DNA from: a virus
Strand: one strand, 5' to 3'
Length of the DNA stretch: 35,250 nucleotides
Virus record (IMG/VR): IMGVR_UViG_3300044540_000022
Span: 1-35,250 of that record
Under the pieces are notes generated by a model. That model ran no database searches and was not told the DNA's origin. It saw nothing but the letters and a program-made list of their open reading frames with translations. Both the position numbers and the translations under genes were made by a program. Positions 9,465 to 34,835 of this stretch are shown here, piece by piece. Position 1 is the first letter of the stretch; the number at the start of each line of letters is the position of its first letter.

Positions 9465-9498
9465 CGGTTTTGTTTCATGACAGGTTGTTTTTTGGTTG

Positions 9499-18703: not shown

Positions 18704-18996
18704 CGTACACAGAGGAACAATTCAACCAACGCAAAGCCTACGCTCGAGAGCTGGGCGCATCCATCCGCTACTGGCGTGAGTTCCGGGGTTACACCCAGGA
18801 ACAGCTCGCCCGTGAGCTTGACCTGTCCGACAACGCCCTGATTTCCCGCTACGAGGCCGGCAAGGTCGAGATGCCCGTCTATCGACTGGCACAGATCGCC
18901 TTTCATCTCGCCATCCCGGTGCAGTCCCTTATTCCTTCACCGCACGATCCGGAGGCCGCCTTTGGCAATGGTCCGTGCAAAACATACACAGCATGA
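18700..18996 (+). CDS. XRE-family (Cro/C1-type) transcription regulator
   Basis: The 98-residue protein has a clear Cro/C1 helix-turn-helix at about residues 18-70: LGASIRYWREFRGYTQEQLA, RELDLSDNALISRYEAGK, MPVYRLAQIAFHLAIP. The conserved Q-E-Q-L-A, S-R-Y-E-x-G and A-x-I-A positions are all there. The C-terminal 28 residues are probably flexible. It binds DNA as a dimer and may switch late genes. No integrase or divergent partner is seen, so it need not be a lysogeny repressor. Confidence 0.85.
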   Translation: MTYTEEQFNQRKAYARELGASIRYWREFRGYTQEQLARELDLSDNALISRYEAGKVEMPVYRLAQIAFHLAIPVQSLIPSPHDPEAAFGNGPCKTYTA

Positions 18997-19974: not shown

Positions 19975-20072
19975 CCACCACGGCCTTTCTCAACGCCCTT
20001 GCCTATCTAAAGGCGAAACGCGCCTATGAGCGCGAGCAGCTAAATAAGGTCACCAATGGCAAAATCCCTTAA
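19893..20072 (+). CDS. Overlapping T-type frame of the tail chaperone
   Basis: From ATG 19893 the product has 59 residues: MRRYGWHHSAELVADLQRIK and then LEEAYELTTTAFLNALAYLK, AKRAYEREQLNK. R-Y-G-W followed by helices is typical of the C-terminal T-part of tail chaperones. It overlaps the previous frame by 82 bases in the -1 frame. It is either translated on its own from 19893, or joined to the 19282 protein by slippage at 19772-19780. It runs to 20072 and overlaps the next start by 17 bases. That this is real coding sequence after 19974 is well supported. Confidence 0.65.
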   Translation: MRRYGWHHSAELVADLQRIKLEEAYELTTTAFLNALAYLKAKRAYEREQLNKVTNGKIP

Positions 20073-20748
20073 ACAGATCCAGGCAGAGGCCCTAAAGGAG
20101 GGCAACCTTGACGTATTCGCAAACAACCGGCAGGACTACCTGTCGGATGGAGAAACGCCGATAACGGCCCTCCTGCTCGGCCAGGTGGCCGGTGAGTTCG
20201 TGCTGAAGGTCATTGAGAACATCAACCGCCTGGGTCTGACTGACCGGGGAAGCCTTACCGATGATCTGTCGCAGGGCGACATTGAGATTTTGGGCAACGG
20301 CGGGTATTCGGTTGAGATAGGCTACGCGCCGGACACGGCGGCCGCGAAATACGCCGACTTCGTCGACAAGGGCGTGAAGGGCGTCAAGTCATCCGCGAAG
20401 GCGCCAAACTCTCCATACTCCTACCGCAAGCTGTCCGTCCCGCCGGTCATGCTAAACGCCATCCGAGGATGGGCCGATCGCCAGGGACTCTCCGCGAGGG
20501 CGGAGGATCAGACCCGGGACCTGTCCGCCCTGCAAGTCAAACGCGGCGGCATCCCACGCGACCCGAAGACCACGCTGGCCTACCTTATCGCTCGCAACAT
20601 CAAGCGGACGGGCCTACCGACGACCCGGTATTTCTCCGGCGAGATTGATAACTATTTCGGCAAGGCGTTCGCCCAAGCCGTGGCCAAAGCCATCGGACAG
20701 GACGTCCGTATCTACATCCGGCAAAGCCAACCCGGTCAATCCCGCTAA
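20056..20748 (+). CDS. Conserved tail/neck structural protein
   Basis: A 230-residue protein. It contains DDLSQGDIEILGNGGYSVEI, a YADFVDKGVKGVKSS string, APNSPYSYRKLSVPP, and TTLAYLIARNIKRTGLPTT followed by RYFSGEID. I recall this order in Bacteroidota phages in tail modules; YADFVDKGVKG looks like HK97-gp10-type tail-completion proteins. The exact place in the virion is not known. Its stop TAA is part of the GCTAATTAGC motif before the next gene. Confidence 0.68.
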   Translation: MAKSLKQIQAEALKEGNLDVFANNRQDYLSDGETPITALLLGQVAGEFVLKVIENINRLGLTDRGSLTDDLSQGDIEILGNGGYSVEIGYAPDTAAAKYADFVDKGVKGVKSSAKAPNSPYSYRKLSVPPVMLNAIRGWADRQGLSARAEDQTRDLSALQVKRGGIPRDPKTTLAYLIARNIKRTGLPTTRYFSGEIDNYFGKAFAQAVAKAIGQDVRIYIRQSQPGQSR

Positions 20749-20753
20749 TTAGC
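20744..20753 (+). promoter_or_regulatory. CTAATTA start-proximal motif 1
   Basis: GCTAATTAGC, a perfect 10-base palindrome, with its CTAATTA ending five bases before the ATG at 20757. Includes the stop codon of the preceding gene. Confidence 0.55.
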
Positions 20754-20756
20754 GGC

Positions 20757-21896
20757 ATGGCCATTACCATAACCCAGGCGCCGGAGTCCTACGCCTCCCT
20801 GCATGACGACCTATGGCATGTCGTCACCTCCAACAATACAAGCCAGTCGAATTTCAAATACGTCATCGACGTCTACGTGGCGTCGTCCATTGTCGCCCGG
20901 CTGAAGGTATTCCCGGACCCGACGGAGGACTGCGGGGCCGTCAACGTGGCCAACATCGTCCGTAACTACTGGGCGTCCTACTTCCGTCCTCCGACCACAC
21001 AGACGGCCTTCGCCTACGAGGGGGACGACATCTATGTCGACTACGAGCTTAAGTTCGGGGAGGAATATGGCGGCACGACCTACCTCAACCTGACCACCGC
21101 CACATACAAGGCGTATAACTTCGCCCAGCCGATCTTCCGGGACTGGTCGACGTCCTACCTGGCGACCTTCGAGAATAAATGGCTCACGAACCGGGATAAG
21201 ACCGGCCTCACGGTCGGACTCACGGAACGGCTATTCGTTCCATATCTTGTCGGCACGCCACCGGCATCCCTGGCCCTCAAGGTCTCGGCCGACGGAGCGG
21301 CCCAGGTCACAGGGTCCGGGGTGTCTTGCGACACGCTCGCCGTCCTCGACCTCTCGCCCGTCGCCATCAACACGTACCTGTCGCAGAGCCTCATTACCTC
21401 CTCCACGAAGGTGTACACCGTTCAGATAGGCTCCGGCGACATCCTGACCATACGGCCGTCGTGCAGCAAGTTCACGCCTATCGTCGTCCACTTCCTCGGC
21501 GGGCTTGGAGGGTACGAAACCATGCGTTTTGCCCTCGTTAACCGACGGACATCGACTGCCGAGCGGCGGACCTTCGAGCGGCCGGGGTGGAACCTGGGCG
21601 CGGATGTCATGAACCGCTACGACGCTTACAAGGTCATGGCGGCCGGCTCGCAGACTTTCGCCGTGGATGAATCGGTGGACTTCACGCTGAACTCCGACAT
21701 CGTGAGCGCGACGGATTACAACTGGCTTCGGGAGCTTGTCATGTCGCCGGAAATCTACATCGAACAGGGCGGTTACTTCTACCCGGTGGCGGTCAAGGAT
21801 ACCAACTGGGTCGAGAAGATCCGCAACTCCGACAAGACCTTCAATTTCACGATCACGCTCACCTACGGCCGTAACCTAAACTCCCAGTACCGTTGA
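20757..21896 (+). CDS. Tail structural protein (large beta-rich)
   Basis: The 379-residue protein (MAITITQAPESYASLHDDLW...) is beta-rich with few charged helices. It has a clear first domain (about 1-110, ending near FRPPTTQTAFAYEGDDIYVD) and a last domain with VVHFLGGLGGYETMRFALVN, SVDFTLNSDIVSATDYNWL, ELVMSPEIYIEQGG. Such proteins lie before the tape measure in Bacteroidota phages and are likely distal tail or tail-tip parts. The end overlaps the next gene by TTGA. Confidence 0.65.
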   Translation: MAITITQAPESYASLHDDLWHVVTSNNTSQSNFKYVIDVYVASSIVARLKVFPDPTEDCGAVNVANIVRNYWASYFRPPTTQTAFAYEGDDIYVDYELKFGEEYGGTTYLNLTTATYKAYNFAQPIFRDWSTSYLATFENKWLTNRDKTGLTVGLTERLFVPYLVGTPPASLALKVSADGAAQVTGSGVSCDTLAVLDLSPVAINTYLSQSLITSSTKVYTVQIGSGDILTIRPSCSKFTPIVVHFLGGLGGYETMRFALVNRRTSTAERRTFERPGWNLGADVMNRYDAYKVMAAGSQTFAVDESVDFTLNSDIVSATDYNWLRELVMSPEIYIEQGGYFYPVAVKDTNWVEKIRNSDKTFNFTITLTYGRNLNSQYR

Positions 21897-24046
21897 GGAC
21901 GGAAATATTCATCGAAGGCCGGCGTCTCGACCTAACGCAGGACATCAACGCGGAGTTCACCTATCAGATCGACGACATCAAGGATTTCGCGAGCCGGAAC
22001 ACGAACTTCAGTAAGACGATAGTCCTGCCCGGCACGGCCCGTAATAACCAGCAGTTCGGGTACGTCTTCGAGTTCACATCGGCCAACTTTTACGACGAGA
22101 CCTCCGGCAATGTAGGGTACAACTTCAACGCCGCGAAACAGGCGCAATGCACCGTCTACGTGGACAAGGTCCAGATCATGAAGGGCGGCCTTCGGCTCCT
22201 GGAAATGGTTAAAACCGGGGGCGTCATCGAGTACGAGTGCGCGGTGTTCGGCGAGCTGGGGGGATTCGTCAACGAAATCGGAAACCGCCGTATCGAGGAA
22301 CTGGACTTCAGCGTGTACGACCACGCCTGGACGTACGCCAACATATCGGCGTCATGGGGCGCGGCCTCCGGCAACCTTGCCGGGTCTGGGTACTATTATC
22401 CGCTCATCGACTACGGCAAGGTCAGCTATAACAGCAAGCAGGACTGGGACGTGAGGGCCTTCCGGCCGGCCATCTTCGTGCGCGAGGCCGTGGACAAGAT
22501 CGTGACGGGGGCCGGGTACACCTGGGAGGGCGACTTCCTGGATACGCCGCTGTTCAAGCGCCTGATCGTGCCGAACAACGGGAAAGACCTTCTGAAGACC
22601 TCCAGCACGCCGCTAAACGCCTCGGTGAGCAATATCAAGACGGTCCTAACCTCCGCCGGCACGGATGTCAGCATCCTAAACTACGACAGCGCGGTATTGA
22701 ACGCGATGACCGCGAACCCGAATAAAAACACGTTCACCTACACCGGGGCGACTACCATATCCGTGAACGCGACGCTGAACATCTACGGCACACTCCAGTC
22801 GTATCAAAACGTGTTCATCCGCGTACTGAAAAACTCCGTCGCCATCGCCGAGAAGGTGGAGGCTGGCATCGGGGCGATCACCCGGCCCTTTAACGTGAAT
22901 CTGCCCTTCTCGACCACGCTCGCGACGAACGACATCATCCAGGTACAGTTCCAGACGACCATATCGTCGAACCCGACCTTCCTCGTCCGGGTGCAGGCGT
23001 CGACCTTCATCATCAACTCGACAACGGAACAATCCATCCCGGCCGACTACGGGGACAACATCGACATGAACGAGAACCTCCCCAGGGGGGTCTTTCAGCG
23101 GGACTTCTTCAGCTCCATCCTGAAACTGTTCAACCTCTACGTGGTGGAGGACACGACAAAATCGAAGCATCTAAAAATCATCCCGTTCATCGACTTTTAC
23201 TATCTGGGCGAGGATGTGGTGCTGATTACGGACGATTTCGGCACGCTTTTCAAAGTGGACTTCGAGAACGACCTCCTGCTGGAGCCCGGCAGCCGGGATT
23301 TCCTGGACTGGACGTACAAGCTCGACCGCTCCCGGCCGATCCGCCTGCGGCCTATGTCCGAACTAAACGGCCGTTATTTCGAGTACAAGTTCAAGCAGGA
23401 CAACGATTACTATAACGAACAGTACGCCAAAAAGTACAGCGAAGGGTACGGCGACCGCATCGAGGATACCGGCTACGAGTTCGCCCGTGAGAAGCAGACG
23501 GCGGAGGTCATATTTTCTAATACCGTCCTGGTGGGATACGACGGCACCGACAAGGTCATGCCCACGATCTTCAAGCTCGCCAATAATGCGGAGGACCGGA
23601 CAGAGCATAACATCCGCATCATGCAGGGCAGGAGGATCGACAACGTGACGCCCTGGGCCCTCCGCGACGGGGCATCCACGATCACATCCGGCATTACCGA
23701 GTATGGGTACGGCGGACACCTCGACGACCCGGACAGTCCGCAGGTAGACATCTGTTTCGGAGCGCCTCGGGAACTCAACTTCGAGCTTACCACCGAATAC
23801 CCGTCCGCCAACCTGTTTAACGGGTTCTGGTCGGACTACGTCGCGGAAATCACAGACAAGGATAGCAAGCTCCTATCGGCATTCTTCCGCTTGACGGAGG
23901 TCGACATCTTTAACCTCGACTTCTCCCGCCTCATCTATGTCGATGGCGCCCTGTGGCGTCTGAACAAGGTGGAGGACTATAACCCGCTGTCGTCGGACGT
24001 GACGAAGGTGGAGCTACTCAAGGTCATCGAATTAAGCTACGCGTAA
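21893..24046 (+). CDS. Large tail/baseplate structural protein
   Basis: The 717-residue protein uses a TTG start at 21893, overlapping the upstream stop as TTGA; there is no good ATG nearby. The N-terminus has IEGRRLDLTQDINAEFTYQI and DFASRNTNFSKTIVLPGTA, with NNQQFGYVFEF next, a pattern I know from Bacteroidota phage tail proteins. Beta-rich segments with Thr/Asn-rich stretches follow (about 230-330). The later part contains DYGDNIDMNENLPRGVFQRD and FFSSILKLFNLYVVEDTTKS. It is probably a baseplate hub or tail-tip component. It ends two bases before the tape measure start. Confidence 0.7.
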   Translation: MRTEIFIEGRRLDLTQDINAEFTYQIDDIKDFASRNTNFSKTIVLPGTARNNQQFGYVFEFTSANFYDETSGNVGYNFNAAKQAQCTVYVDKVQIMKGGLRLLEMVKTGGVIEYECAVFGELGGFVNEIGNRRIEELDFSVYDHAWTYANISASWGAASGNLAGSGYYYPLIDYGKVSYNSKQDWDVRAFRPAIFVREAVDKIVTGAGYTWEGDFLDTPLFKRLIVPNNGKDLLKTSSTPLNASVSNIKTVLTSAGTDVSILNYDSAVLNAMTANPNKNTFTYTGATTISVNATLNIYGTLQSYQNVFIRVLKNSVAIAEKVEAGIGAITRPFNVNLPFSTTLATNDIIQVQFQTTISSNPTFLVRVQASTFIINSTTEQSIPADYGDNIDMNENLPRGVFQRDFFSSILKLFNLYVVEDTTKSKHLKIIPFIDFYYLGEDVVLITDDFGTLFKVDFENDLLLEPGSRDFLDWTYKLDRSRPIRLRPMSELNGRYFEYKFKQDNDYYNEQYAKKYSEGYGDRIEDTGYEFAREKQTAEVIFSNTVLVGYDGTDKVMPTIFKLANNAEDRTEHNIRIMQGRRIDNVTPWALRDGASTITSGITEYGYGGHLDDPDSPQVDICFGAPRELNFELTTEYPSANLFNGFWSDYVAEITDKDSKLLSAFFRLTEVDIFNLDFSRLIYVDGALWRLNKVEDYNPLSSDVTKVELLKVIELSYA

Positions 24047-24047
24047 C

Positions 24048-25940
24048 ATGGCAACGGAATCGGTAAACATAAAAGTGCAGGTCGACGCCGGGGACGGCGT
24101 GAAGAACGTGGGCAACATCCGCCGGGAGCTGAAGGAGGCCAACGCGGAACTGATCGCGGCACAGCGGGAGTTCGGGCAATACTCGAAGGAGGCCGTCGCG
24201 GCCGCAAAACGGGTGGCGGAATTAAGAGACGCCGTAGCGGACGCCCGTGAGGCGGCCGACCTGTTTGATCCGGGTAAGAAGTTCCAGGCATTCTCCGCCG
24301 TGATCAATTCGGTGGCCGGTGGGTTCGCAGCCGTGCAGGGCGCCCTCGGCCTTGTGGGCGTGGAGTCGGAAGAGGTCGAGAAGCAGCTTCTGAAGGTCCA
24401 GTCCGCGCTCGCCCTCTCGCAGGGCCTTAATGAAATCACGGACGCAGCGCCCAAGTTCGCAGGCCTCGCCGCCACCATACGGACGAAGGTAGTCACGGCA
24501 TTCAGCACGCTCAAGGGCGCCATCGCCGCTACCGGCATCGGGGCGCTTGTCGTCGGCATCGGTTTGCTGATCGCGAACTTCGACGCGGTTGTCGCAAAGA
24601 TTCGCCAGGTGATCCCCGGATTCGATGGATTCGTGAACGGGGTCCGCCGGGCCATCAACGCCGTGACGGACTTTATTGGCATAACCTCGGAAGCGGAGCG
24701 CCAACTGGACAAATTGGCAGACGCCAACAAGTCAAGGGCCGAACAGATCGAGCGTGAGATTAAAGTCCTATCCGCGCAGGGAAACAAAGAGGGCGAGATT
24801 TACAGCAAGCGCCGGGAACTCATCGGTAACGAGCTGGCCCTACTGAAGGAACGCGAAAAGGCGGGGCAGAAACTATCGGAAGCAGAAATGAAGCAGAAGC
24901 TCGACCTACAAGCGGATGCTACCGCGCTCGACCTGACGGAGGACAAGCGCGTCCGCGACCAGGCCGAACAAAGAGCCAAAGAATCCCGCGAGCGTGCAAA
25001 ACAGGCGGCGCAGGAGGCGGGAGAGGCGGAGAAGGCCCGCCTTGAGGCAATACGGGCGCAACAGGACGCTTTTGACGCGGCGGATAAGGATAGGCTCACG
25101 AAGTCTAAACAACAGATAGACGAAGCCAACAAGATCCTGGACGACGCCCGGAAGGAACGGGAGCTGAACCGCCTCGAAGGCCGGGAGCGCGAATTGCAGG
25201 AGCTGGAGTTTCAGTACCTCGAGGAACAGCAGGCGGCCGAAGGGAACTACCTGGCCCTGCTTGCCCTGGAGGAATCGTACCTGATCCGCCGCAAGGAAAT
25301 AAACGACAAGTTTGACGTCGAGTCATCGGAGACGGCGGCAAAGAACGCGCAGACATCCGTAGAACGAACCATCGCACAGCTCGCCGCCGAAACCGCCGCC
25401 AGGCAAAAGGCGGCCGACGATCAGAAGGCCATCGACGAAGCGCGGAAGATTGCGACAGAGCAGATCTACGCACAGATCGGTAGCGCCATCGGTTCGCTCT
25501 CGACCCTACTGGGCAGAAACACCGCCGCCGGCAAGGTGGCCGCCCTCGCGGAAATCGCCATCAATACCGGCGTGGGATTCGCCAATGGTCTCCGCATCGC
25601 GCAACAGTCGGCGGTTGCAACAGGTCCCGGCGCCGCCTTCGCCTTCCCGGTATTCTACGCCACGCAGGTAGCGGCCGTCCTCGCAGCTGTGGCACGGGCG
25701 AAGTCCGTCCTCCAGGGAGTGGCAGGTCCTGGTGGCGGCGGGGCATCCGCTCCGTCCGTCGGGAATACGACCGCTCCGCTCGCGCCTGCCCTACCGCTGA
25801 CGCAGACGGTCACGCAGCTTCAGTCGGGAACAATCAATCAACTTCAAAGCGCGACGACACGGGCATACGTGGTCGAGTCCGACGTGACCGGGGCGCAGGA
25901 GAGGATTCGCCGATTGAACAGGGCCGCCCGGCTGGGTTAA
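24048..25940 (+). CDS. Tape measure protein
   Basis: The 630-residue protein starts MATESVNIKVQVDAGDGVKN, the usual tape-measure opening. Its parts are: helices to about 130; a hydrophobic region (about 160-185, AIAATGIGALVVGIGLLIAN); a long coiled coil (about 225-460) rich in Lys, Glu, Ala and Gln; a second apolar, Ala-rich part (about 475-560, IGSAIGSLSTLLGRN and AFPVFYATQVAAVLAAVARA); a Gly/Pro/Thr-rich linker; and the end AYVVESDVTGAQERIRRLNR typical of Bacteroidota phages. It sets tail length and may help DNA cross the inner membrane. A length of 630 residues predicts a short tail. Confidence 0.88.
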   Translation: MATESVNIKVQVDAGDGVKNVGNIRRELKEANAELIAAQREFGQYSKEAVAAAKRVAELRDAVADAREAADLFDPGKKFQAFSAVINSVAGGFAAVQGALGLVGVESEEVEKQLLKVQSALALSQGLNEITDAAPKFAGLAATIRTKVVTAFSTLKGAIAATGIGALVVGIGLLIANFDAVVAKIRQVIPGFDGFVNGVRRAINAVTDFIGITSEAERQLDKLADANKSRAEQIEREIKVLSAQGNKEGEIYSKRRELIGNELALLKEREKAGQKLSEAEMKQKLDLQADATALDLTEDKRVRDQAEQRAKESRERAKQAAQEAGEAEKARLEAIRAQQDAFDAADKDRLTKSKQQIDEANKILDDARKERELNRLEGRERELQELEFQYLEEQQAAEGNYLALLALEESYLIRRKEINDKFDVESSETAAKNAQTSVERTIAQLAAETAARQKAADDQKAIDEARKIATEQIYAQIGSAIGSLSTLLGRNTAAGKVAALAEIAINTGVGFANGLRIAQQSAVATGPGAAFAFPVFYATQVAAVLAAVARAKSVLQGVAGPGGGGASAPSVGNTTAPLAPALPLTQTVTQLQSGTINQLQSATTRAYVVESDVTGAQERIRRLNRAARLG

Positions 25941-26109
25941 AGCGCAGTTTAAACCGCTAAACCGGCAAAATGGAGGAATCCTCCAAAAATCCTCTACCTA
26001 TACGGTTGGAGTACGGTAGCAATCCGCGGACTGCAACCCACCCAAATAGTATCTTCCCCCCGGCTTCCCCCCGTTAGGTCACCCGCTCCCTGCCATGCTA
26101 ATTACGGGC
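25941..26109 (+). other. Structured intergenic region between tail and head modules
   Basis: A 169-base gap with TAAACCG repeated twice (25950-25964), a hairpin TGGAGG/CCTCCA (25971-25985), a longer imperfect hairpin (26004-26038, GGTTG/CAACC outer stem, loop TAGCAAT) and the tandem CTTCCCCCCGG repeat near 26053-26073. It ends in the CTAATTA motif. No clear promoter boxes. It may be a late control or packaging-related element. Confidence 0.4.
26097..26104 (+). promoter_or_regulatory. CTAATTA start-proximal motif 2
   Basis: GCTAATTA, five bases before the ATG at 26110, in a gap not touched by the previous gene. This supports 26110 rather than the ATG at 26095, which lies across the motif. Confidence 0.6.
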
Positions 26110-27156
26110 ATGGATAAGGAACTGCCCGTCTACGACCTAATGATAAGCGAGGACCCACTCGCAGAGGAGGAGGTCGATTTCATCGCCCTTGTGGATAAGC
26201 CCGCCATCGAGCGCAATTTCCTTGCATTCAGCGAGGATGAGACGTTCGTCGAACCCGGCCCAACCGAAACGGAGGACGAGTTCATCGGCAGGTGCATTCC
26301 GTACATGATGGACGAAGGCATGCCGCAGGACCAGGCGGCGGCGGTCTGTTACTCGAAATGGGAGGACAGGGCGAAGTTCCAGGAGTCCTATTCCGACTAC
26401 CCGGACGCCGTTCGTAACAACGCCCGTGCGGCGCTCAAATGGGCAGAGGAAAACGGGTGGGGGTCATGTGGCACAGCAGTCGGTAAGCAACGGGCCAACC
26501 AGCTTGCCAATGGGGAGCCGGTGAGCCTCGAGACCATCAAGCGCATGTACAGCTTTCTATCCCGCCATAAAGTCAGCGCGGAGGCCTCGAAGGGCTACGG
26601 CGACGGGTGCGGGCAGCTCATGTACGACGCATGGGGCGGGGCCTCGGCCCTATCCTGGGCGGAGTCGAAGATAAGGCAGGCCGAACGGGCAAGGGCGGCC
26701 TTCGCCATCCAGGACGAAGAACAGCGCATCATATCCGGACCGCTCATCGTGGCAGACCGCAAGATTTACCGCCGGGATGACAAGGGCGAATACTACGTGG
26801 TTTTTCCACGTGAAACGGTGAAGGCGATAGCGATCAAATATTTCAAAAAGGGATACCAGGGCAACGTGAACCTGATGCACGACAGCGGCCAAGTGGTCGG
26901 CGGGGTGACGATGTTCGAGTCCTGGATAAAGGATTCGGAGCGCGGCATACCTGGCATGGAGGGCTTCGAGGACCTGCCCGACGGGACCTGGTTCGGCTCC
27001 TTCAAGGTCGACAACGAGGACGTGTGGGCGCGGATAAAGTCCGGCGAGGTCAAGGGGTTCAGCGTCGAGGGGGTGTTCAATTATGAGCGTTCCGGCGCCG
27101 AGAAGGAGGACGCCCTGCTCTCCGCCATCGTTCGGATCCTGGAGAAGGTCAAGTAG
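26110..27156 (+). CDS. Prohead protease, XkdF-like, with two extra N-terminal domains
   Basis: From 26110 the product has 348 residues. Residues about 1-95 include an acidic start (ISEDPLAEEEVDFIALVDKP), then EDEFIGRCIPYMMDEGMPQD and AAAVCYSKWED, common in phage proteases. Residues about 95-190 hold SDYPDAVRNNARAALKWAEE, NGWGSCGTAVGKQRANQLAN and GCGQLMYDAWGG, a module of unknown function found in capsid-linked phage proteins. Residues about 200-330 are the XkdF-type domain: ISGPLIVADRKIYRRD, VNLMHDSGQVVGGVTMFESW, ARIKSGEVKGFSVEGVF, with candidate catalytic His and Ser. It likely cuts scaffold and capsid during head maturation. Confidence 0.8.
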   Translation: MDKELPVYDLMISEDPLAEEEVDFIALVDKPAIERNFLAFSEDETFVEPGPTETEDEFIGRCIPYMMDEGMPQDQAAAVCYSKWEDRAKFQESYSDYPDAVRNNARAALKWAEENGWGSCGTAVGKQRANQLANGEPVSLETIKRMYSFLSRHKVSAEASKGYGDGCGQLMYDAWGGASALSWAESKIRQAERARAAFAIQDEEQRIISGPLIVADRKIYRRDDKGEYYVVFPRETVKAIAIKYFKKGYQGNVNLMHDSGQVVGGVTMFESWIKDSERGIPGMEGFEDLPDGTWFGSFKVDNEDVWARIKSGEVKGFSVEGVFNYERSGAEKEDALLSAIVRILEKVK

Positions 27157-27166
27157 ACACGAACCC

Positions 27167-27174
27167 GCTAATTA
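27167..27174 (+). promoter_or_regulatory. CTAATTA start-proximal motif 3
   Basis: GCTAATTA, five bases before the ATG at 27180 and ten bases after the previous stop, so it is free of coding constraint. Confidence 0.6.
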
Positions 27175-27179
27175 GGCGC

Positions 27180-27530
27180 ATGGCAGGAGACTTCAGGCCC
27201 GGGACCTATAACATAAAGCTGTGGCGTGGGAATACGTGGCAGAACACCTTCAAGATCTACACCAACGGGGTCGCGGAGAACCTATCGACGGCCGAAGTCC
27301 GCATCCAGCTACGAGTGAAGCCGAACAGCCCGACCGCCGTCGTCACCCTCACGGAGGCGTCCGGCATCACGGTCGGAGGGGTGGCAAATAATGAAATCGT
27401 CGTTTCCGCGCGCATCAACATCGACCCGAAGCTGTACTACTGGGACGTCCTGGTCGTCAAGGGCGGCGTTTACAAAACCTACCTACAGGGCAAGTTTGAG
27501 GTTTACGAGGAAATAACCGAACCGGCATGA
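27180..27530 (+). CDS. Virion protein, baseplate/fibre-type beta domain
   Basis: A 116-residue beta-sandwich-like protein: YNIKLWRGNTWQNTFKIYTN, VAENLSTAEVRIQLRVKP, YYWDVLVVKGGVYKTYLQGK. The opening 'RGNTW...F.I..NG' is familiar from phage receptor-binding or baseplate-upper (BppU-like) proteins. The small size suggests an adaptor that carries another fibre. ATGA overlap with the C1q-like gene next to it suggests that they form one structure. Confidence 0.65.
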   Translation: MAGDFRPGTYNIKLWRGNTWQNTFKIYTNGVAENLSTAEVRIQLRVKPNSPTAVVTLTEASGITVGGVANNEIVVSARINIDPKLYYWDVLVVKGGVYKTYLQGKFEVYEEITEPA

Positions 27531-28033
27531 GCGTAACCGTCGACATAATCGAACAGACCGTCTCCGTCTACGACGGGGCTACGAAATACTACGGGTCATT
27601 CTACTCTACCCAGGATCAGACGAACGCGGGCGCAACGTCCGTGAACAAGGTCACGATGAACCAAACCGACCTCTCCAACGGGGTCACGGTCGTGTCGAAC
27701 AGCCGAATAACTATCGCTAATCCGGGCGTGTATAACATCGCCTTCTCGGTTCAGCTGGAGAAGACCGACAGCGGCGACGATGCCGTGCAGATATGGCTGC
27801 AAAAGGGAGGCGTCAACGTAGACAATACCGCGACCGAGGTAACCATAGTGGGCAACAACGGCAAGTTCGTCGCCGCGTGGAACTTCTTCGTGCAGGCGGC
27901 CGCCGGGGACTATTATGAGCTGTGCTGGCACAGCGCGGATACCGCGGTCAGCCTCCAGGCGCAGGGCACGGCATCAAACCCGACCCGCCCTGCAATTCCT
28001 TCCGTAATCGTAACCGTAAATCAAGTATCATGA
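27527..28033 (+). CDS. Fibre head-like jelly-roll protein (C1q/TNF-like)
   Basis: The 168-residue protein has the strands typical of C1q/TNF-like trimeric head domains in phages: YYGSFYSTQDQTNAGATS, RITIANPGVYNIAFSVQLEK, DAVQIWLQKGGVNVDNTATE, FVAAWNFFVQAAAGDYYELC. It lacks a collagen-like stalk. It may decorate the capsid or bind carbohydrate. ATGA overlap links it to the exported gene that follows. Confidence 0.72.
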   Translation: MSVTVDIIEQTVSVYDGATKYYGSFYSTQDQTNAGATSVNKVTMNQTDLSNGVTVVSNSRITIANPGVYNIAFSVQLEKTDSGDDAVQIWLQKGGVNVDNTATEVTIVGNNGKFVAAWNFFVQAAAGDYYELCWHSADTAVSLQAQGTASNPTRPAIPSVIVTVNQVS

Positions 28034-28452
28034 AATATCGCATCTTATTGATTCTCATTGCGTTCGGTTTGAGCGCAATGGCACAGCGAAAGCAACCCGC
28101 CTCCACGCCGACCATAAGGGTGGACACGGCCAAGACGGGCGTGGTATTTTCAGACAGTGCGAGGCCGAAGAAAAAAGGCATCGACGTGAATCCGGTCAAG
28201 GTATGGAAGGATGGCAAGACCGTGGACGGCGTCGACCTCGACGTGGACGTCGCCTATGAGGACCTGGACAAGTTGGTGCGCTTTTACTACCAGCTCAAGG
28301 ATTCGGCCGGCGCACAAATCGCCAACGGTAACGTGGAGGTCAGCGGCGATGAATATGAGGATTACAAAACCAAGCCGAACCACGCTCAAAGGGCCTACCA
28401 GATCGTCCTCCGCCACCTCCGCCTTCAACAGAAACCCCAAACCGTAAACTGA
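28030..28452 (+). CDS. Exported protein with signal peptide, unknown function
   Basis: The 140-residue protein starts MKYRILLILIAFGLSAMAQR, a standard signal peptide cut after A-M-A or A-Q. The mature part is hydrophilic (KTVDGVDLDVDVAYEDLDKL, YYQLKDSAGAQIANGNVEVS) and has no membrane anchor. An exported, soluble protein in the middle of the capsid/fibre genes is unusual. It might act in the periplasm before lysis, or be exposed on cells. Function unknown. Confidence 0.7.
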   Translation: MKYRILLILIAFGLSAMAQRKQPASTPTIRVDTAKTGVVFSDSARPKKKGIDVNPVKVWKDGKTVDGVDLDVDVAYEDLDKLVRFYYQLKDSAGAQIANGNVEVSGDEYEDYKTKPNHAQRAYQIVLRHLRLQQKPQTVN

Positions 28453-28458
28453 TACAAC

Positions 28459-28716
28459 ATGCAGCAGTTCAGCAAGTTCTTCGCCATCAACGGCCGCGAC
28501 CTGGTCAAAGGCGTAATCGTCGCCGTCCTCACGGTGGTGGTGACGGCTCTCGCCACCAGCCTTGAAGCCGGAAGCCTACCGACCCTCGACCAATGGAAAC
28601 AGATCGGGATGATGGCCGCCGCCGCCGGCATATCCTACTTTCTCAAAAACTTCTTGACCAACAGCGAGGACAAGTTCCTTTCCACCGAACCGAAGGCGGA
28701 AGAGCCGGAGGCCTAA
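28459..28716 (+). CDS. Holin-like membrane protein
   Basis: The 85-residue protein has two membrane segments (about 18-38, GVIVAVLTVVVTALATSL, and 48-63, IGMMAAAAGISYFLKNF) separated by a short loop, and an acidic Glu/Pro-rich tail. FFAINGRDLVKG, the loop with LDQWKQIG and YFLKNFLTNSEDKF match proteins called holins in Bacteroidota phages. Holins open the inner membrane at a set time to release the endolysin. The gene is far from the endolysin (4788), which is unusual but possible in late transcripts. Confidence 0.65.
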   Translation: MQQFSKFFAINGRDLVKGVIVAVLTVVVTALATSLEAGSLPTLDQWKQIGMMAAAAGISYFLKNFLTNSEDKFLSTEPKAEEPEA

Positions 28717-28754
28717 ATGGTACATTCCACAAAAACGCACTAAATACCCGCAAG

Positions 28755-29357
28755 ATGACGCCCAAAGAAGCACTCGATAAGATTCGTCAGCTGTTCGCCG
28801 ACCCGTCCGTCGCAGCTCCCGCCACCGAACCGGCTCCCGCCGTCATGGAGGCGAAAGAGTACGTCCTCGAAGGGGGCGCGAAGGTCCTGGTCTCCGAACT
28901 CGAACCCGGCGGCATGGTGTCGCTGGTGGACGACCAGGGCGCGACCTCTCCCGCTCCGGCCGGTGAGCATAAGCTCGTCGACGGCACAGTAATTACCGTG
29001 AACGAGGCCGGCACGATCACCGCCGTCATGATGCCGGAAGCGCCGGTCATGCCGGAGGATGAGCTGGCCAAGAAGCTCGATGAGAAAATGGCCGCCATCC
29101 GCGAGGATGTGCAGAAGGAAAACGACGCCATCCGTCAGCTGATCGAGAACCTCGCCAAACACGATGAGTTCAAGGCCACCGTCGAAGGCATCAACGCGAA
29201 GCTGCAAGGTCTCGCTGACGCCGTGACCGCCCTGCTCGACACCCCGTCCGCTGATCCGATCCAGGAGCCGAAAGACAAGTTCGAGAAGACAGAAAAGAAA
29301 AATGAGCGCTTGCAGGCCGTTGCCGACATGCTCACGAAACTGAAATCCAAAGCATAA
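28755..29357 (+). CDS. Capsid scaffold-like protein
   Basis: The 200-residue protein starts MTPKEALDKIRQLF. The first half contains a small beta domain: EYVLEGGAKVLVSELEPGGM, VDDQGATSPAPAGEHKLVDG, TVITVNEAGTITAV. Next come an acidic helix and coiled coil (ELAKKLDEKMAAIREDVQKE, FKATVEGINAKLQGLADAV) and a basic end (ERLQAVADMLTKLKSKA). A helical protein with basic end just before the capsid gene is the expected scaffold. The beta domain is typical of Bacteroidota versions. It would be cut by the XkdF-like protease. Confidence 0.75.
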   Translation: MTPKEALDKIRQLFADPSVAAPATEPAPAVMEAKEYVLEGGAKVLVSELEPGGMVSLVDDQGATSPAPAGEHKLVDGTVITVNEAGTITAVMMPEAPVMPEDELAKKLDEKMAAIREDVQKENDAIRQLIENLAKHDEFKATVEGINAKLQGLADAVTALLDTPSADPIQEPKDKFEKTEKKNERLQAVADMLTKLKSKA

Positions 29358-29379
29358 CAACCCCTAAAATTCAATAAAC

Positions 29380-30333
29380 ATGGGATTCTCCCTCGGTACA
29401 TTGACCCCCTACGTGGAGCAGAATGAGCAGCTCCTGGTCGCCAGCTCCGTTCTGGGCGCCAAAACCCAGCAGCTCATCCAGGCCGGCGGCACCATCATGG
29501 CCCGCGTGAAGTCGAAGGAGACCATCAACGTGATGTACACCGACGCCATCTTCCAGGCCGGCGGTACCTGCGGATTCCTCACCTCCGGCACCACATCGAT
29601 CACCCAGCGCGAAGTCGAGGTCGGCAAGTTCAAAGTGAACGAGGCCATCTGCCCGAAGGACCTCGAAGCCTACTACACCCAAAAGGCCCTCGCCGCCGGA
29701 AGCCGTTACGACACGATGGCCTTCGCCGAAGAGTACACCGCCCGGAAGGCCGCGAAGATCGCCGCCCAGCTCGAGACCGCGCTGTGGCAGGGTGACAAGA
29801 CCAGCGTGAACGTGAACCTCAACAAGTTCGACGGTCTGATCGAGCTGATCAAGGATGCCGGCGTAACCGTCATCAACGCCAACTCCATCGCCTTCCACGG
29901 TTCGGTTGAGACCGACATCACCAACTCCAACGTGGTCGCAATCTTCGATTCGATCTACAAAGCCATCCCGGCCGAGATCGTCGACAAGGATGACACAAAG
30001 ATTTTCTGCGGCATGGACGTCTTCAGGACGCTGACCGTGAAGATCAAAAACGACGATCTGTTCCACTACCAGGTTGTGGCCGCTCCGAACACGTCCTTCT
30101 TCCTTCCTGGAACCCAGATCGAGGTCGTAGGAACCCCCGGACTGAACGGAACCAAGAAGGTGTACGCGATGCGCGTGTCGAACCTCTACCTCGGTACCGA
30201 CATCCTCGATGAGGATCAGAACCGCTGGGAGCTGTTCTTCGCCCGCGAGGCCGACCAGGTGCGCTTCGTGTCCGAGTTCAAGCTGGGCATCAACTTCGCC
30301 TTCCCCCAGGAGATCGTGAAGTTCGAGGTATAA
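29380..30333 (+). CDS. Major capsid protein, HK97-type
   Basis: The 317-residue protein (MGFSLGTLTPYVEQNEQLLV...) follows the scaffold gene by 22 bases. IMARVKSKETINVMYTDAIF and TTSITQREVEVGKFKVNEAI are early strands of the HK97 fold. FAEEYTARKAAKIAAQLETA resembles the long spine helix, and the late part has TKIFCGMDVFRTLTVKIKN and GTPGLNGTKKVYAMRVSNLY. Codon use is very regular, as in highly expressed genes. The fold call rests on pattern and place. A stable hairpin follows the gene. Confidence 0.85.
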   Translation: MGFSLGTLTPYVEQNEQLLVASSVLGAKTQQLIQAGGTIMARVKSKETINVMYTDAIFQAGGTCGFLTSGTTSITQREVEVGKFKVNEAICPKDLEAYYTQKALAAGSRYDTMAFAEEYTARKAAKIAAQLETALWQGDKTSVNVNLNKFDGLIELIKDAGVTVINANSIAFHGSVETDITNSNVVAIFDSIYKAIPAEIVDKDDTKIFCGMDVFRTLTVKIKNDDLFHYQVVAAPNTSFFLPGTQIEVVGTPGLNGTKKVYAMRVSNLYLGTDILDEDQNRWELFFAREADQVRFVSEFKLGINFAFPQEIVKFEV

Positions 30334-30345
30334 TTCCATCTAACC

Positions 30346-30369
30346 GGGGAGGGGCTACGGCCTCTCCCC
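30346..30369 (+). other. Very stable hairpin with UACG tetraloop after the capsid gene
   Basis: A 10-bp stem (30346-30355 with 30360-30369), one G-U pair, closes a C(UACG)G tetraloop of the stable UNCG class. No T tract follows, so it is more likely an mRNA stabiliser or partial block than a full terminator. Confidence 0.7.
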
Positions 30370-30384
30370 ACAACCATACAAGCA

Positions 30385-30897
30385 ATGAGCTGCGCCCTAA
30401 CACAAGGATATACCTTCGATTGTAAGGACAACATCGGCGGCCTTAAAAGCGTATGGTTCATCGGATGGAATGACGTCTCCAGCGTGACCGAATCATCCGG
30501 AACCATAACCGCGATCACGAAGGCATCCGGCAAGGTCTTCTATAAGTACCAGCTGGTCCGCAACACGTCGAGCTTCACGGAGAACATCGCCGGGTCGATC
30601 GAGAACGGCACCGTGGTCTACAACCAGGAGCTTCTGATCGTCATCAACAAGATGCAGGTCAGCATGCGGAACGAAATCCTGCTCCTGGCGAAGAACAACA
30701 TGATGGCCGTCGTCGAAGATCAGAACGGCCGTTACTGGCTGGCCGGTCGCTACAACGGCCTCGACCTGCTTTCGGGCAGCGCCTCCACCGGCCTCGCCCA
30801 AGCGGACCGGAACGGTTATTCGCTCACCTTCTCCGGTGGCGAAAAGGAAATGGCTCCGGCCGTACAGGCCTCCGTCATCGCGACGCTGACCGCCTAA
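30385..30897 (+). CDS. Tail tube-like / structural protein
   Basis: The 170-residue protein (MSCALTQGYTFDCKDNIGG...) has FTENIAGSIENGTVVYNQEL, LIVINKMQVSMRNEILLLAK, VVEDQNGRYWLAGRYNGLDL and GYSLTFSGGEKEMAPAVQAS. I recall this pattern as a structural protein that follows the capsid in Bacteroidota phages. A single small beta domain with a helix is the usual layout of tail tube subunits. A terminator follows, as expected for a highly expressed virion gene. The tube role is inferred. Confidence 0.65.
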   Translation: MSCALTQGYTFDCKDNIGGLKSVWFIGWNDVSSVTESSGTITAITKASGKVFYKYQLVRNTSSFTENIAGSIENGTVVYNQELLIVINKMQVSMRNEILLLAKNNMMAVVEDQNGRYWLAGRYNGLDLLSGSASTGLAQADRNGYSLTFSGGEKEMAPAVQASVIATLTA

Positions 30898-30922
30898 ACC
30901 GATACTTTGCTTCATAGACATC

Positions 30923-30955
30923 GGGCCGCCCTTTCCAGGGTGGCCCTTCTTATTT
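30923..30955 (+). terminator. Rho-independent terminator, TTTCCA loop
   Basis: A 9-bp stem (30923-30931 with 30938-30946), one G-U pair, loop TTTCCA, then TTCTTATTT. It limits transcription after the capsid and tube genes. A tiny frame (ATG 30961, M-A-D-F-R) follows. Confidence 0.85.
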
Positions 30956-30973
30956 GCACAATGGCGGACTTCC

Positions 30974-30981
30974 GCTAATTA
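30974..30981 (+). promoter_or_regulatory. CTAATTA start-proximal motif 4
   Basis: GCTAATTA, six bases before the ATG at 30988. It includes the stop of the five-codon frame that starts at 30961. Confidence 0.6.
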
Positions 30982-30987
30982 TCCGCA

Positions 30988-31368
30988 ATGGTGAACCTCA
31001 CGACCGGGACCGTTGCGACCGTCTATTTTACGCTGACCGAAAAGCAGACGTTAGGTTCGCCTAACTACCTGTTCCTGTTCACCCAGCGCACGACTAACCG
31101 GGAGGTGGCTTTCGTGAAGCTCAACGCGGCCGACACGTCACCCGCAAAGGAACGGTACAACCGCTTCACCTTCGACGTGGACCAGCTCTTTTGCGGGTTC
31201 ATCGGCGAATACCACTACGAGATCCGGGAGCAGGCCAGCACGTCCAACCTCGACCCGGCGCAATCCGGCAAGGTGCTGGAGACGGGGATGATGCGACTAA
31301 ACGAACCGGCGGAGGACGCCTACGCCTTCACGACATACGAGACCGATAACATATTCGTGACAAGATGA
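30988..31368 (+). CDS. Structural protein, beta-rich
   Basis: The 126-residue protein (MVNLTTGTVATVYFTLTEKQ...) is a beta sandwich by pattern: NYLFLFTQRTTNREVAFVKL, RYNRFTFDVDQLFCGFIGEY, HYEIREQASTSNLDPAQSGK. Its opening resembles the one at 27180 in form, so both may be fibre- or baseplate-attachment domains. ATGA overlap links it to the portal gene. Function not proved. Confidence 0.65.
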   Translation: MVNLTTGTVATVYFTLTEKQTLGSPNYLFLFTQRTTNREVAFVKLNAADTSPAKERYNRFTFDVDQLFCGFIGEYHYEIREQASTSNLDPAQSGKVLETGMMRLNEPAEDAYAFTTYETDNIFVTR

Positions 31369-33332
31369 CCGACAACACCGTCATAATACGCTTTGCGGAG
31401 GCGAGGCAACCCGAATACCGCGAGCGAAAGGGGCAGGGTTACATCGAGTTCGGAGACCGGAACGACTATCCGGAATACCTTCTCGACCTCTTCAATAAAT
31501 CGGCGAAGCATAACGCCATCGTCAAGGGCAAGGTGAATTATATCACCGGCAACGGATGGAAGGCGGCGGAAGGCGACCTTGTCGCCGATGCGTTCATCCG
31601 CCAGCCCAACCCCTACGAGACACTCGCGGAGCTGACCCGGAAGGTGAGCCTCGACATCGAGATTTTCGGCGGCGCCTACCTGGAGGTGATATGGTCGCAG
31701 GCCGGGGGCAACCTTGTCAGCGTGACGCATGTGGACTACACGAAGATCCGGTCGACCTCCGACAACACGTCATTCTTTTACAAAAAAGACTGGACAGACC
31801 GCCGTGGTGAGGTGACTACCGTCCCGGCATTCAACACGTCCGTGAGGCAGGGCCGTCAGATCCTGTACATCAAAGAATACCGGCCGGGCCTCGACGCATA
31901 CGCCCTGCCCGGATACCTCGGCTCCCTGAACTACATCGAGTCCGACATCGAAGTTTCGAAACACGTCCTGGGGAACGCACAGACCGGATTCAGCGCGTCG
32001 AAGCTTATCACGCTACCCAACGGAGAACCCTCGCCCGACGAAAAACGCATCATCGACAACCGCTTCCGGGATAACTTCAGCGGAGCGGATGGTAAAAAGT
32101 TCATGCTCTCATTCGTCACAGATGCCGCACGGAAGCCTATCGTCGAGGACCTGGGAGCCTCCGACCTTACGAAAGAGGATTTCGGCCGGGTGGATTCGAT
32201 GATCCAGCAGAACATCTTCGCCGGCCACCAGCTCACCTCCCCCGCCTTGTTCGGCATCGCAGAACCGGGGAAGCTGGGGACACGGAGCGAGCTGCGGGAT
32301 GCCTATGAGATCTTTAAAAACACATACGTCTCCGACAAGCAGCAGCACCTCGAGCAGGTGTTCAATCGCCTTGCGGAAATCAAGGGCGCACAGGAGCCTA
32401 TCACCATCATCCCGGTCGAGCCTATCACCTTCGAGCTGTCGGAGACATCCATCGTGGCCGTAGCGCCCAGGGAGTGGATCCTGGAAAAGGCGGGCATCGA
32501 TGAGTCGAAATATGCACCCTCGGTTGTGCAGCCGGGTCAAGCTCCTGCACAGCCGGAGGCGCCTTCCGTGAATGAGAACCTGAAGAACCTTACCGGCCGC
32601 CAATGGCAGCAGGTGATGAGGATCGTCCGCCAGTACGGCCAGGGCAAGATTACGCGGGAAATCGCCGTGACGATGCTCCGGTCCGGCCTGGCGATGGGTG
32701 ACGACGACATCGCCGCGATGCTGGGAGAGGTCGGGGAATTTTCCGCCGACATGACGGAGGACGACGTGGTCGCGGTGTTCGGGGAGTACGGCGAGGCCCG
32801 AGAGATGTTCGAGGTCATCGAGAACCGCCGCCTGCGATTCGCGGACGTGGAGGATGAGACCGACAAGGGCATTCTGGGCATCCTCCAACGGCAACCGCTA
32901 ACGCCCGCCGCCGACGTGGCGAAGGCCCTGCGTATAGGCGTCACAGAGGCCGAAAGGCGCATCGCGGCGCTTATCGAGCGCAAGGTATTGGTCGTGTCGG
33001 AAAAGGGCGAAATAAAGCCATCCAGGCCCGTCTCCGAGCTTGTTGACGAACCGTCCAAGCTCCGGTATGAAATCCGGTATTCCTACGAATGGAAACCGGA
33101 GGTTCCGGCCGGCGAAAGGGACACGGCGGCGCATCCTTCCCGGCCGTTTTGCAAAAAGTTGATGAGCCTGGATCGTTTTTGGACCCGCCGCGAAATCGAG
33201 AGTATTTCCCTTCGCCTCGGATACTCCGTCTTCGACCGTGGGGGCGGATGGTGGGGCCAGGGGGCTGGGCAGCCGGCATCGCCGTCATGCCGTCATGAAT
33301 GGAGGTCGAACGTTTTAATCAGAAGGAAATGA
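31365..33332 (+). CDS. Portal protein with long C-terminal extension
   Basis: The 655-residue protein has a portal-like core (about 1-380): FGDRNDYPEYLLDLFNKSAK, HNAIVKGKVNYITGNGWKAA, IEIFGGAYLEVIWSQAGGN, IQQNIFAGHQLTSPALFGIA. It forms the ring for DNA entry and joins head and tail. The extension contains a helical part (about 400-490), a winged-helix-like part (GILGILQRQPLTPAADVAKA, ALRIGVTEAERRIAALIERK) and a last domain with HPSRPFCKKLMSLDRFWTR, GYSVFDRGGGWWGQG, PSCRHEWRSN whose Cys and His could bind zinc. I recall this last domain at the end of Bacteroidota phage portal or MuF-like proteins. Confidence 0.82.
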   Translation: MTDNTVIIRFAEARQPEYRERKGQGYIEFGDRNDYPEYLLDLFNKSAKHNAIVKGKVNYITGNGWKAAEGDLVADAFIRQPNPYETLAELTRKVSLDIEIFGGAYLEVIWSQAGGNLVSVTHVDYTKIRSTSDNTSFFYKKDWTDRRGEVTTVPAFNTSVRQGRQILYIKEYRPGLDAYALPGYLGSLNYIESDIEVSKHVLGNAQTGFSASKLITLPNGEPSPDEKRIIDNRFRDNFSGADGKKFMLSFVTDAARKPIVEDLGASDLTKEDFGRVDSMIQQNIFAGHQLTSPALFGIAEPGKLGTRSELRDAYEIFKNTYVSDKQQHLEQVFNRLAEIKGAQEPITIIPVEPITFELSETSIVAVAPREWILEKAGIDESKYAPSVVQPGQAPAQPEAPSVNENLKNLTGRQWQQVMRIVRQYGQGKITREIAVTMLRSGLAMGDDDIAAMLGEVGEFSADMTEDDVVAVFGEYGEAREMFEVIENRRLRFADVEDETDKGILGILQRQPLTPAADVAKALRIGVTEAERRIAALIERKVLVVSEKGEIKPSRPVSELVDEPSKLRYEIRYSYEWKPEVPAGERDTAAHPSRPFCKKLMSLDRFWTRREIESISLRLGYSVFDRGGGWWGQGAGQPASPSCRHEWRSNVLIRRK

Positions 33333-33931
33333 GCCGCAAGATACTACTGATAACGCCGCAGACTATCAAGGAACGCACCGGCCTTCACGCCAACGTCGAC
33401 GAGAAGCTGGTGAACCCGGAAATCATGACCGCCCAGGACATGTTCATCCACCCGGCCCTCGGCACGGCCCTGTACAATCGGATCCTGGACGGCGTGGAAA
33501 ATAACAACCTCACGGACACCGAGCAGGACCTCATCGACACGTACATCACGCCGACGCTGGTGTACTACGTCGTCTCCGAACTTCCGATGGGCCTCGGCTT
33601 CCAGTTCTACAACAAGGGCGTGGTCCGCAAGACCGGAACCGATCAGGTGGAGCCGTCCATGCAGGACCTCATCGACGTGGCCAACCGTTACAAGGCGCGG
33701 GCGGAGTTCTATAAGAATCGCCTGATAAAGTATGTCAAGGAAACGGCGTCGAAGGGCGTCCACTTCCGCGAGTACATCAACCCGGGGACCGGCCTCGATA
33801 CGATCCATCCGGAGTCCGACGCATACACCATATCAGTATGGCTGGGTCCGGATTGTGGATGCGGCGGCAAGGATAAGCGGAGGTTCGAGGATAAGTACCA
33901 GGGCGACAGCTTCCGGTGCTGCGACGAATAA
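33329..33931 (+). CDS. Head-tail connector (DUF6712-like)
   Basis: The 200-residue product starts at 33329 (ATGA overlap; an earlier in-frame start at 33299 lies inside the portal gene). LLITPQTIKERTGLHANVDE, KLVNPEIMTAQDMFIHPALG, TYITPTLVYYVVSELPMGLG, KGVVRKTGTDQVEPSMQDL are familiar from head-tail adaptor proteins of Bacteroidota phages. It is helical, as adaptor (gp6-like) proteins are. The Cys-rich end (C-G-C-G-G and C-C-D-E) is unusual and may bind metal. Confidence 0.75.
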   Translation: MSRKILLITPQTIKERTGLHANVDEKLVNPEIMTAQDMFIHPALGTALYNRILDGVENNNLTDTEQDLIDTYITPTLVYYVVSELPMGLGFQFYNKGVVRKTGTDQVEPSMQDLIDVANRYKARAEFYKNRLIKYVKETASKGVHFREYINPGTGLDTIHPESDAYTISVWLGPDCGCGGKDKRRFEDKYQGDSFRCCDE

Positions 33932-33934
33932 CCT

Positions 33935-34105
33935 ATGACAGGAAACCGAAAATACAGCAACCGAAATCAGGAGAAGCTCCGTGCGTACCTGAAAAAAATT
34001 GAGGATGACGCTAAACGAACTCATCGCGCAGATACAAAAGATAGGGGACGACCACAAGGTCATCGCGACGACGTACAACGGCGTGGCGATCGACCTGCTA
34101 AGTGA
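33935..34105 (+). CDS. Possible small basic protein (uncertain)
   Basis: A frame of 56 residues (MTGNRKYSNRNQEKLRAYLK...) starts three bases after the connector stop. The first 25 residues look like a basic helix; the rest lies on the next gene and is of Arg/Asp-rich shadow type. Without the 33935 gene the gap 33932-34004 would be just 73 bases. It may be real but could be chance. Confidence 0.3.
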   Translation: MTGNRKYSNRNQEKLRAYLKKIEDDAKRTHRADTKDRGRPQGHRDDVQRRGDRPAK

Positions 34106-34451
34106 CCAGGAGGTCACCTACCCGGCGTTCACGTTCGACATCTCGATCGGGCGCATATCCGGGCCGTCCCTCACGTGGGACGTGAACATGTTCTTCTTCG
34201 ACCGGCTCCAGCAAGGCGGGATGAACGAGCGGGAGGTGCAGAGCGACCAGGTACAGATCGCCCAGGACGTCCTCGCCTCTCTGCGGTATCCCGGAAACGG
34301 GTTCACGGTCGGAGACAACTTCGCCGTGAACCTGTTCACGGAATCGACGCCGGAGCTGCTGGCCGGTTGCAGCATGACGCTGTCCATCGAGCTACCGGCA
34401 CCATCCGACCGCTGCGTCATACCGTCGGACTATCAATATGAGGATTCCTAA
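34005..34451 (+). CDS. Conserved tail-completion/terminator-like protein
   Basis: From the ATG at 34005 the product has 148 residues (a TTG at 33999 is an alternative). MTLNELIAQIQKIGDDHKVI, YPAFTFDISIGRISGPSLTW, DVNMFFFDRLQQGGMNEREV, then VQIAQDVLASLRYPGNGFTV. An alpha helix followed by beta strands fits tail-terminator or completion proteins, and I recall this pattern after the connector in other Bacteroidota phages. Its stop TAA lies in the CTAATTA motif of the next gene. Confidence 0.7.
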   Translation: MTLNELIAQIQKIGDDHKVIATTYNGVAIDLLSDQEVTYPAFTFDISIGRISGPSLTWDVNMFFFDRLQQGGMNEREVQSDQVQIAQDVLASLRYPGNGFTVGDNFAVNLFTESTPELLAGCSMTLSIELPAPSDRCVIPSDYQYEDS

Positions 34452-34454
34452 TTA
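34448..34454 (+). promoter_or_regulatory. CTAATTA start-proximal motif 5
   Basis: CTAATTA, six bases before the ATG at 34461. Overlaps the stop codon of the preceding gene. Confidence 0.55.
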
Positions 34455-34460
34455 CGACCA

Positions 34461-34835
34461 ATGGCCAACAAGCGGATAAATCAACTTGACGACAGGGTCC
34501 CGGTGGGGACGGACCTAATCCTGGTCGGCGACCCGGTCTCCGGTTATTCGTACAAGACGACGGTCGCCTCGCTGGTCACATCCGCCGCAACATCGGTGCA
34601 GGTATACTTCAAACCGGGCGATGTGGGCTATCCCGCCATCGGGGCATCCACCTACACTAACGCAGGGTTCGCAGGGGCGGACATCATGCTCGTCTTCCGC
34701 AACGGCCTGCCACAATTCAACTCCGACCCCGGAGACGGGGATACCTATTTCACATTCTCCGGGACTACCGTGACCTTTTCCGCTGCGTTAGGGGCGGGAG
34801 AGAAAATCATAATCGTAAGCGTCAAACTGACATAA
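34461..34835 (+). CDS. Fibre-associated structural protein
   Basis: The 124-residue protein starts MANKRINQLDDRVPVGTDLI and goes on LVGDPVSGYSYKTTVASLV. This 'K-R-I-N-Q-L...D.L...D..SG...K.T...L' opening is a common attachment segment of phage fibre and neck proteins. The rest (ADIMLVFRNGLPQFNSDPGD, FTFSGTTVTFSAALGAGEKI) is a beta domain like those in fibre tips. It lies one base before the tail fibre gene, so it may attach the fibre to the tail. Confidence 0.75.
   Translation: MANKRINQLDDRVPVGTDLILVGDPVSGYSYKTTVASLVTSAATSVQVYFKPGDVGYPAIGASTYTNAGFAGADIMLVFRNGLPQFNSDPGDGDTYFTFSGTTVTFSAALGAGEKIIIVSVKLT

Follow-up and report, generated by a model that had tools for sequence, protein, structure and literature searches.

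A conserved two-block signal at late start codons of an uncultured phage, read as a predicted late promoter of leaderless or nearly leaderless messages

Late genes of the uncultured phage studied here, and of its relatives, are preceded by a conserved signal that consists of two blocks in fixed geometry, is confined to late start codons, and is positioned independently of the ATG itself. We consider it probable (about 0.8), from sequence comparison, that the downstream block, CTAWWTA, is the −10 element of phage late promoters, most likely read by a phage ECF-type sigma factor, and that the resulting mRNAs are leaderless or nearly so. The −35 block, close to GGTCAA, would lie ~21 nt upstream of the first base of the box, and transcription is predicted to start at a purine six bases after the box end (CTAWWTA-N4-Y-R, with R as +1). 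On this numbering, the box would span −12 to −6, with the upstream block at about −33 to −28, and box-to-ATG spacings of 5, 6, 7, 8, and 9 nt would place the ATG at +1, +2, +3, +4, and +5, respectively. Because, at most late genes, the predicted +1 purine either coincides with the A of the ATG or falls 1–4 nt before it, leaders of only 0–4 nt would be expected. Host RNA polymerase carrying the phage ECF-type sigma would most likely recognize these boxes, with early genes using Bacteroidota-type TAnnTTTG boxes instead and having leaders of ~23–33 nt.

The window—the whole stretch of DNA that was analyzed—is a single contig from an uncultured virus, 35,250 bases long and with 56% G+C. A tail-fiber-like gene is apparently divided between its two ends (34837–35250 and 3–2456), and the record is therefore probably a near-complete, circularly permuted genome. 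The host is probably a member of the Bacteroidota, judging from promoter style and sigma family; searches with the capsid or sigma protein found no cultured relatives in the annotated phage collection, and GTDB genomes yielded no relative. TAnnTTTG boxes of the Bacteroidota sigma-A type stand before early genes at 5371, 5381, 10400, and 16824, three of them (5371, 5381, and 16824) with leaders of 23–33 nt and an ACACAC-type ending, and the one at 10400 followed by a ~100-nt untranslated stretch up to the 10506 gene. A tRNA-like gene at 9374–9465 on the plus strand (anticodon undetermined by ARAGORN; no Rfam match) lies just 5′ of an HNH endonuclease gene (9559–10182).

Exact CTAATTA occurs five times on the plus strand of the window, standing 5, 5, 5, 6, and 6 nt, in order of position, before an ATG (Table 1), just as the original prediction from this sequence had claimed (three of its coordinates, 26097, 27167, and 30974, are 0-based, and the remainder are ATG positions). 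On the minus strand there are two matches, both palindromic overlaps at 20745 and 27168. The resulting total of seven on both strands compares with 1.26 expected from shuffles and was reached in 0 of 100 shuffles. Widening the box to CTAWWTA adds CTAAATA at 20040 and 28740, the former, 9 nt before its start, being absent from the initial list, while the minus strand still holds only the palindromic overlaps. All seven plus-strand copies thus lie 5–9 nt before a late start. Two of the CTAATTA boxes, at 20745 and 34448, overlap the previous gene far enough to include its stop codon, and the other three do not, also as described before. An ATGG after the box, proposed as a further regularity, holds for all five CTAATTA copies of the window and is not general in relatives. 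Two weaker forms had been suspected as well: CTAAATA at 28740 proved genuine, with CTAAATA, CTAATTA, or CTATTTA in its orthologs, and CTAACTA at 2449 scores low by a matrix built from relatives, yet orthologs of the gene that follows have CTAATTA with N5 spacing.

Table 1. Coordinates of predicted promoter elements and of genes named in the text
Feature	Position	Strand	Remarks
Degenerate box CTAACTA	2449–2455	+	before 2459 gene; low score
ECF-type sigma factor gene, 224 aa	12503–13177	+	proposed reader of the boxes
Terminase large subunit gene	start 17073		late gene
HTH protein gene	18700–18996		
Predicted −10 box CTAAATA	20040–20046	+	predicted TSS 20052; ATG 20056; no clear −35
Predicted −10 box CTAATTA	20745–20751	+	predicted TSS 20757 = A of ATG; weak −35 AAGCCAA at ~20724–20730
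Tape measure gene	start 24048		late gene
−35-like block GGTCAC, protease-gene promoter	26077–26082	+	
Predicted −10 box CTAATTA	26098–26104	+	predicted TSS 26110 = A of ATG of head maturation protease gene
Head maturation protease gene	start 26110		late gene
−35-like block GGTCAA	27147–27152	+	
Predicted −10 box CTAATTA	27168–27174	+	predicted TSS 27180 = A of ATG
−35-like block GGTACA	28719–28724	+	
Predicted −10 box CTAAATA	28740–28746	+	predicted TSS 28752; ATG 28755
Probable capsid gene	start 29380		late gene
Intrinsic terminator hairpin, then TTCTTATTT	30923–30946	+	directly 5′ of the next promoter
−35 region of portal-operon promoter, TTTGCACA	30953–30960	+	
Predicted −10 box CTAATTA	30975–30981	+	predicted TSS 30987; ATG 30988
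Portal gene	start 31365		late gene
Predicted −10 box CTAATTA	34448–34454	+	predicted TSS 34460; ATG 34461; weak −35

A search with the capsid protein retrieved 22 related viral contigs, and the box is present again at orthologous genes in ~20 uncultured phage contigs. Across the family, 37 of 341 starts have CTAATTA or CTAAATA 4–9 nt upstream, against ~0.4 expected, although these relatives are phylogenetically non-independent. Within that interval CTAATTA is enriched ~90-fold and CTAAATA ~110-fold, and every other single-base variant of the box is found in 0 or 1 copies; only the fifth base tolerates exchange (A/T) in the family. Flanking bases differ between relatives while the box stays at the same late genes, and two distant, A+T-rich contigs (L020 and L021; capsids 59–63% identical) have CTATTTA at the orthologs of the protease, 28755, and 30988 genes. 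In the close family, CTAATTA lies 3–7 nt before the ATG in 42 of 62 distinct contexts, several of the remaining contexts being palindromic overlaps or having a second, nearer ATG. The original view of CTAATTA as a phage-specific signal tied to the starts of late genes without ATGA coupling is thereby upheld at the orthologous genes of relatives. The fixed spacing that it described does not hold in relatives, box and ATG being separated by 5–19 nt at the protease gene. The capsid gene itself has no box; it would be transcribed, together with the 28755 gene, from the predicted promoter at 28740. When DNA of viral contigs was scanned with the bare box, mostly unrelated contigs were retrieved, and a scan with the two-block pattern returned ~15 family contigs among 25, most of the others either lacking the box or having it at a start codon. 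A hairpin around the box was also considered and rejected, the palindrome at 20745, for example, not being kept in orthologs.

Several features of the sites indicate the geometry of a promoter. Upstream, 53 non-redundant sites show conspicuous columns at −21 to −16, counted from the first box base, to a degree that 0 of 2000 rotations reach; with ortholog groups equally weighted and rotated whole, the best 6-column block starts at −22 (0 of 3000 rotations reach it). Unrelated genes provide examples of this block—GGTCAA (27147), GGTCAC (26077), GGTACA (28719), GGTAAC, GGCAAG, and TGTCAA—and a search for triplet pairs (dyads) in all family upstream regions, made blind to the box, ranks GGT-18-CTA first (12 vs 1.5) and GGC-18-CTA third. 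The block is loose, being near absent at 20040, 20745, and 34448. Spaced word pairs were also seen upstream of starts in L064–L072 (GGT-N20-TAA) and L207–L223 (TGG-N18-ATA), and were unconvincing on inspection. Downstream, among the 32 sites with a box-to-ATG spacing of at least 6 nt, a pyrimidine–purine (YR) step occupies bases 5–6 after the box in 22, compared to 7.9 expected, and the sixth base is a purine in 31; counted from the ATG instead, YR exceeds 12 of 32 at no position. The ortholog group of the 28755 gene illustrates this arrangement with the pattern CTAAATA-NNNN-YA-AG-ATG. The distance to the ATG is free to vary, as in orthologs of the protease gene, which keep the box and have the ATG 5, 6/15, 13, 16, 17, 18, or 19 nt away. 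A matrix trained on relatives only places the seven window sites at ranks 1–7 of both strands (scores 21.6–15.4; next 13.9). Finally, intrinsic terminators lie directly upstream of 8 of 44 box starts, compared to 15 of 291 other starts; one precedes the 30988 gene in the window and in several of its orthologs, and another the 20757 ortholog in L059. With strong terminators right before boxes, transcription has to restart within the remaining 30-odd bases, which hold both blocks. No Rfam match to an RNA family was found.

These observations bear directly on the explanation first put forward, namely that CTAATTA is a phage-specific sequence recruiting ribosomes at a fixed distance from the AUG. 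Such a role would fit the distance of 3–9 nt between box and ATG at most sites, the A that the box puts at −6 when the spacing is 5, and the behavior of Bacteroidota, which make no use of Shine-Dalgarno pairing and rely on upstream adenines (PMC6847099). However, both the GGTCAA block and the YR step follow the position of the box rather than that of the ATG, protease orthologs depart from a fixed distance by spacings of up to 19 nt, and the capsid gene, for which the strongest initiation would be expected, has no box. An A at −3 discriminates nothing, as its frequency is the same at box starts (0.39) and other starts (0.38). The spacing had itself been offered as an argument against a promoter, but a near-fixed distance is what one would expect of a promoter from which transcription begins at the AUG. 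We therefore regard a translation-initiation signal as very unlikely. That the boxes are ordinary host promoters of the Bacteroidota sigma-A (sigma-ABfr; TTTG / TAnnTTTG; PMC6847099, PMC9723704) near start codons, read with no phage sigma, seems to us unlikely, too. CTAWWTA does contain the TAnnT core, placed at a similar distance from the predicted start, and a TTTG stands near −33 at the 30975 site. This TTTG, however, was seen at no gene other than 30988, and there it overlaps the T-run of the terminator; the upstream block common to the sites resembles GGTCAA. Likewise, the phage box lacks the TTTG end and requires its final A (CTAATTT and CTAATTG are absent before starts), and it would come with no long leader, whereas the TAnnTTTG boxes of the window stand before early genes with long leaders. 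A third possibility, that the repeats are sites for some other phage regulator (a repressor, an activator, or an RNA-binding protein), can draw on the HTH protein encoded in the window and on the start-linked short repeats of unknown function in other phages, such as the start-associated sequences (SAS) of cluster K mycobacteriophages (PMC3203893). Here, too, the −35 block, the spacing, and the YR start fit a promoter better than a single operator, and with the 20745 palindrome lost in orthologs we give this possibility very little credence, the least of the three.

The late promoters proposed here have a candidate reader in the protein encoded at 12503–13177, an ECF-type sigma factor of the kind that accompanies phiEco32 gp36-type late promoters, as indicated by structural models and by family matches of its homologs. 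The window's own protein matched no sigma family in a family-model search. Its homologs (40–53% identical) match TIGR02937 (sigma70-ECF) in 15 of 19 cases (best 5e-7) and TIGR02985 (Sig70_bacteroi1, a Bacteroidota ECF family) in 7 of 19, and one matches Pfam Sigma70_r4_2 at 1.2e-4. For two AlphaFold models of moderate confidence, the top Foldseek matches are nearly all sigma factors, chiefly ECF (best E 0.009–0.04), including an alignment to E. coli sigma-E region 4 at ~2 Å; a BFVD match annotated ‘RNA polymerase sigma-70 region 2’ was obtained at 5.6e-4, and a profile of the sigma found no match among PDB sequences. A homolog is also present in the five other 27–39 kb contigs from the capsid search. 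The 224-aa family protein extends ~50 aa further at the C terminus than its homologs in most other phages, which have 171 aa. All groups with the sigma—the family, L020/L021, and two further groups—show enrichment of CTAWWTA before starts, and the box is nearly absent in the TerL-related phages 73–143, in which searches gave no sigma homolog. We take this association as no more than suggestive, because enrichment in one sigma-bearing group (144–206) comes mostly from a single gene, the likely counterpart of that at 19282. In these distant phages (L144, L146, L150, L161, L169, L170, L172, L173, L183, L194, and L196), CTATTTA is followed 5–6 nt on by the ATG of a gene beginning MNWSNVTVFQ or MTWNDVTVFQ, like 19282.

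Among known systems, T4 late promoters are recognized by the sigma factor gp55, which reads TATAAATA; they have no −35 element and are generally not fused to start codons. The signal described here resembles them in its AT-rich −10 box at late genes and in the dedicated phage sigma that we propose, and differs from them in its upstream block and its position at start codons. The nearest described system is that of phiEco32/SU10, in which the ECF sigma gp36 reads tAATGTATAtA 6–8 nt upstream of middle and late operon starts (PMC4281155). Both combine a phage sigma of the ECF family, a short AT-rich motif, and intrinsic terminators between units, and in both a non-host motif with fixed promoter geometry lies upstream of late operons, here as two blocks and a YR step. 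Unlike phiEco32/SU10, however, the present phage has the arrangement GGTCAA-N15/16-CTAWWTA, at least seven predicted promoters in 35 kb, a predicted start at the AUG, and a probable Bacteroidota host; the motif is not that of gp36, and the sigma matched no phage sequence in the annotated collection. The cluster K SAS, a 13-bp repeat with a Shine-Dalgarno core 3–7 bp before starts (PMC3203893), is likewise a short conserved repeat close before the start codons of a gene subset, although the likeness is one of position only—SAS marks non-structural genes, whereas the phage box stands at late genes in the arrangement of a promoter.

In earlier work, leaderless genes were recognized by a TA-like signal ~12 bp before the start codon (PMC3160421), and a −10-like box at this distance is also what we find; the signal there is the TAnnnT of host sigma factors, in contrast to the sharp CTAWWTA at late genes of one phage group. 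Such messages are uncommon in Bacteroidota, with leaderless mRNAs at 5.5% in F. psychrophilum (PMC9723704) and ~3.7% of B. thetaiotaomicron 5′ UTRs falling below 10 nt (PMC7366714). The distance of 4–5 nt from the −7 box to the TSS in F. johnsoniae promoters (PMC6847099) agrees with the box-to-start distance predicted here.

A full-text literature search returned no descriptions of Bacteroidota phage late promoters, which are scarcely described, and a predicted sigma–promoter pair with precise start-site predictions can now be offered. On balance, we lean toward the broader view that this whole Bacteroidota-type phage group makes most of its virion operons as leaderless mRNAs, through a phage ECF sigma and a transcription start fused to the AUG. 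More generally, a promoter fused to a start codon can be mistaken for a ribosome signal, and the box provides a means to define late genes in uncultured relatives. If the proposed mechanism is true, the late program would bypass leader-dependent initiation in hosts without Shine-Dalgarno pairing, and these phages would constitute a natural test of how far translation of leaderless mRNA can sustain abundant virion proteins.
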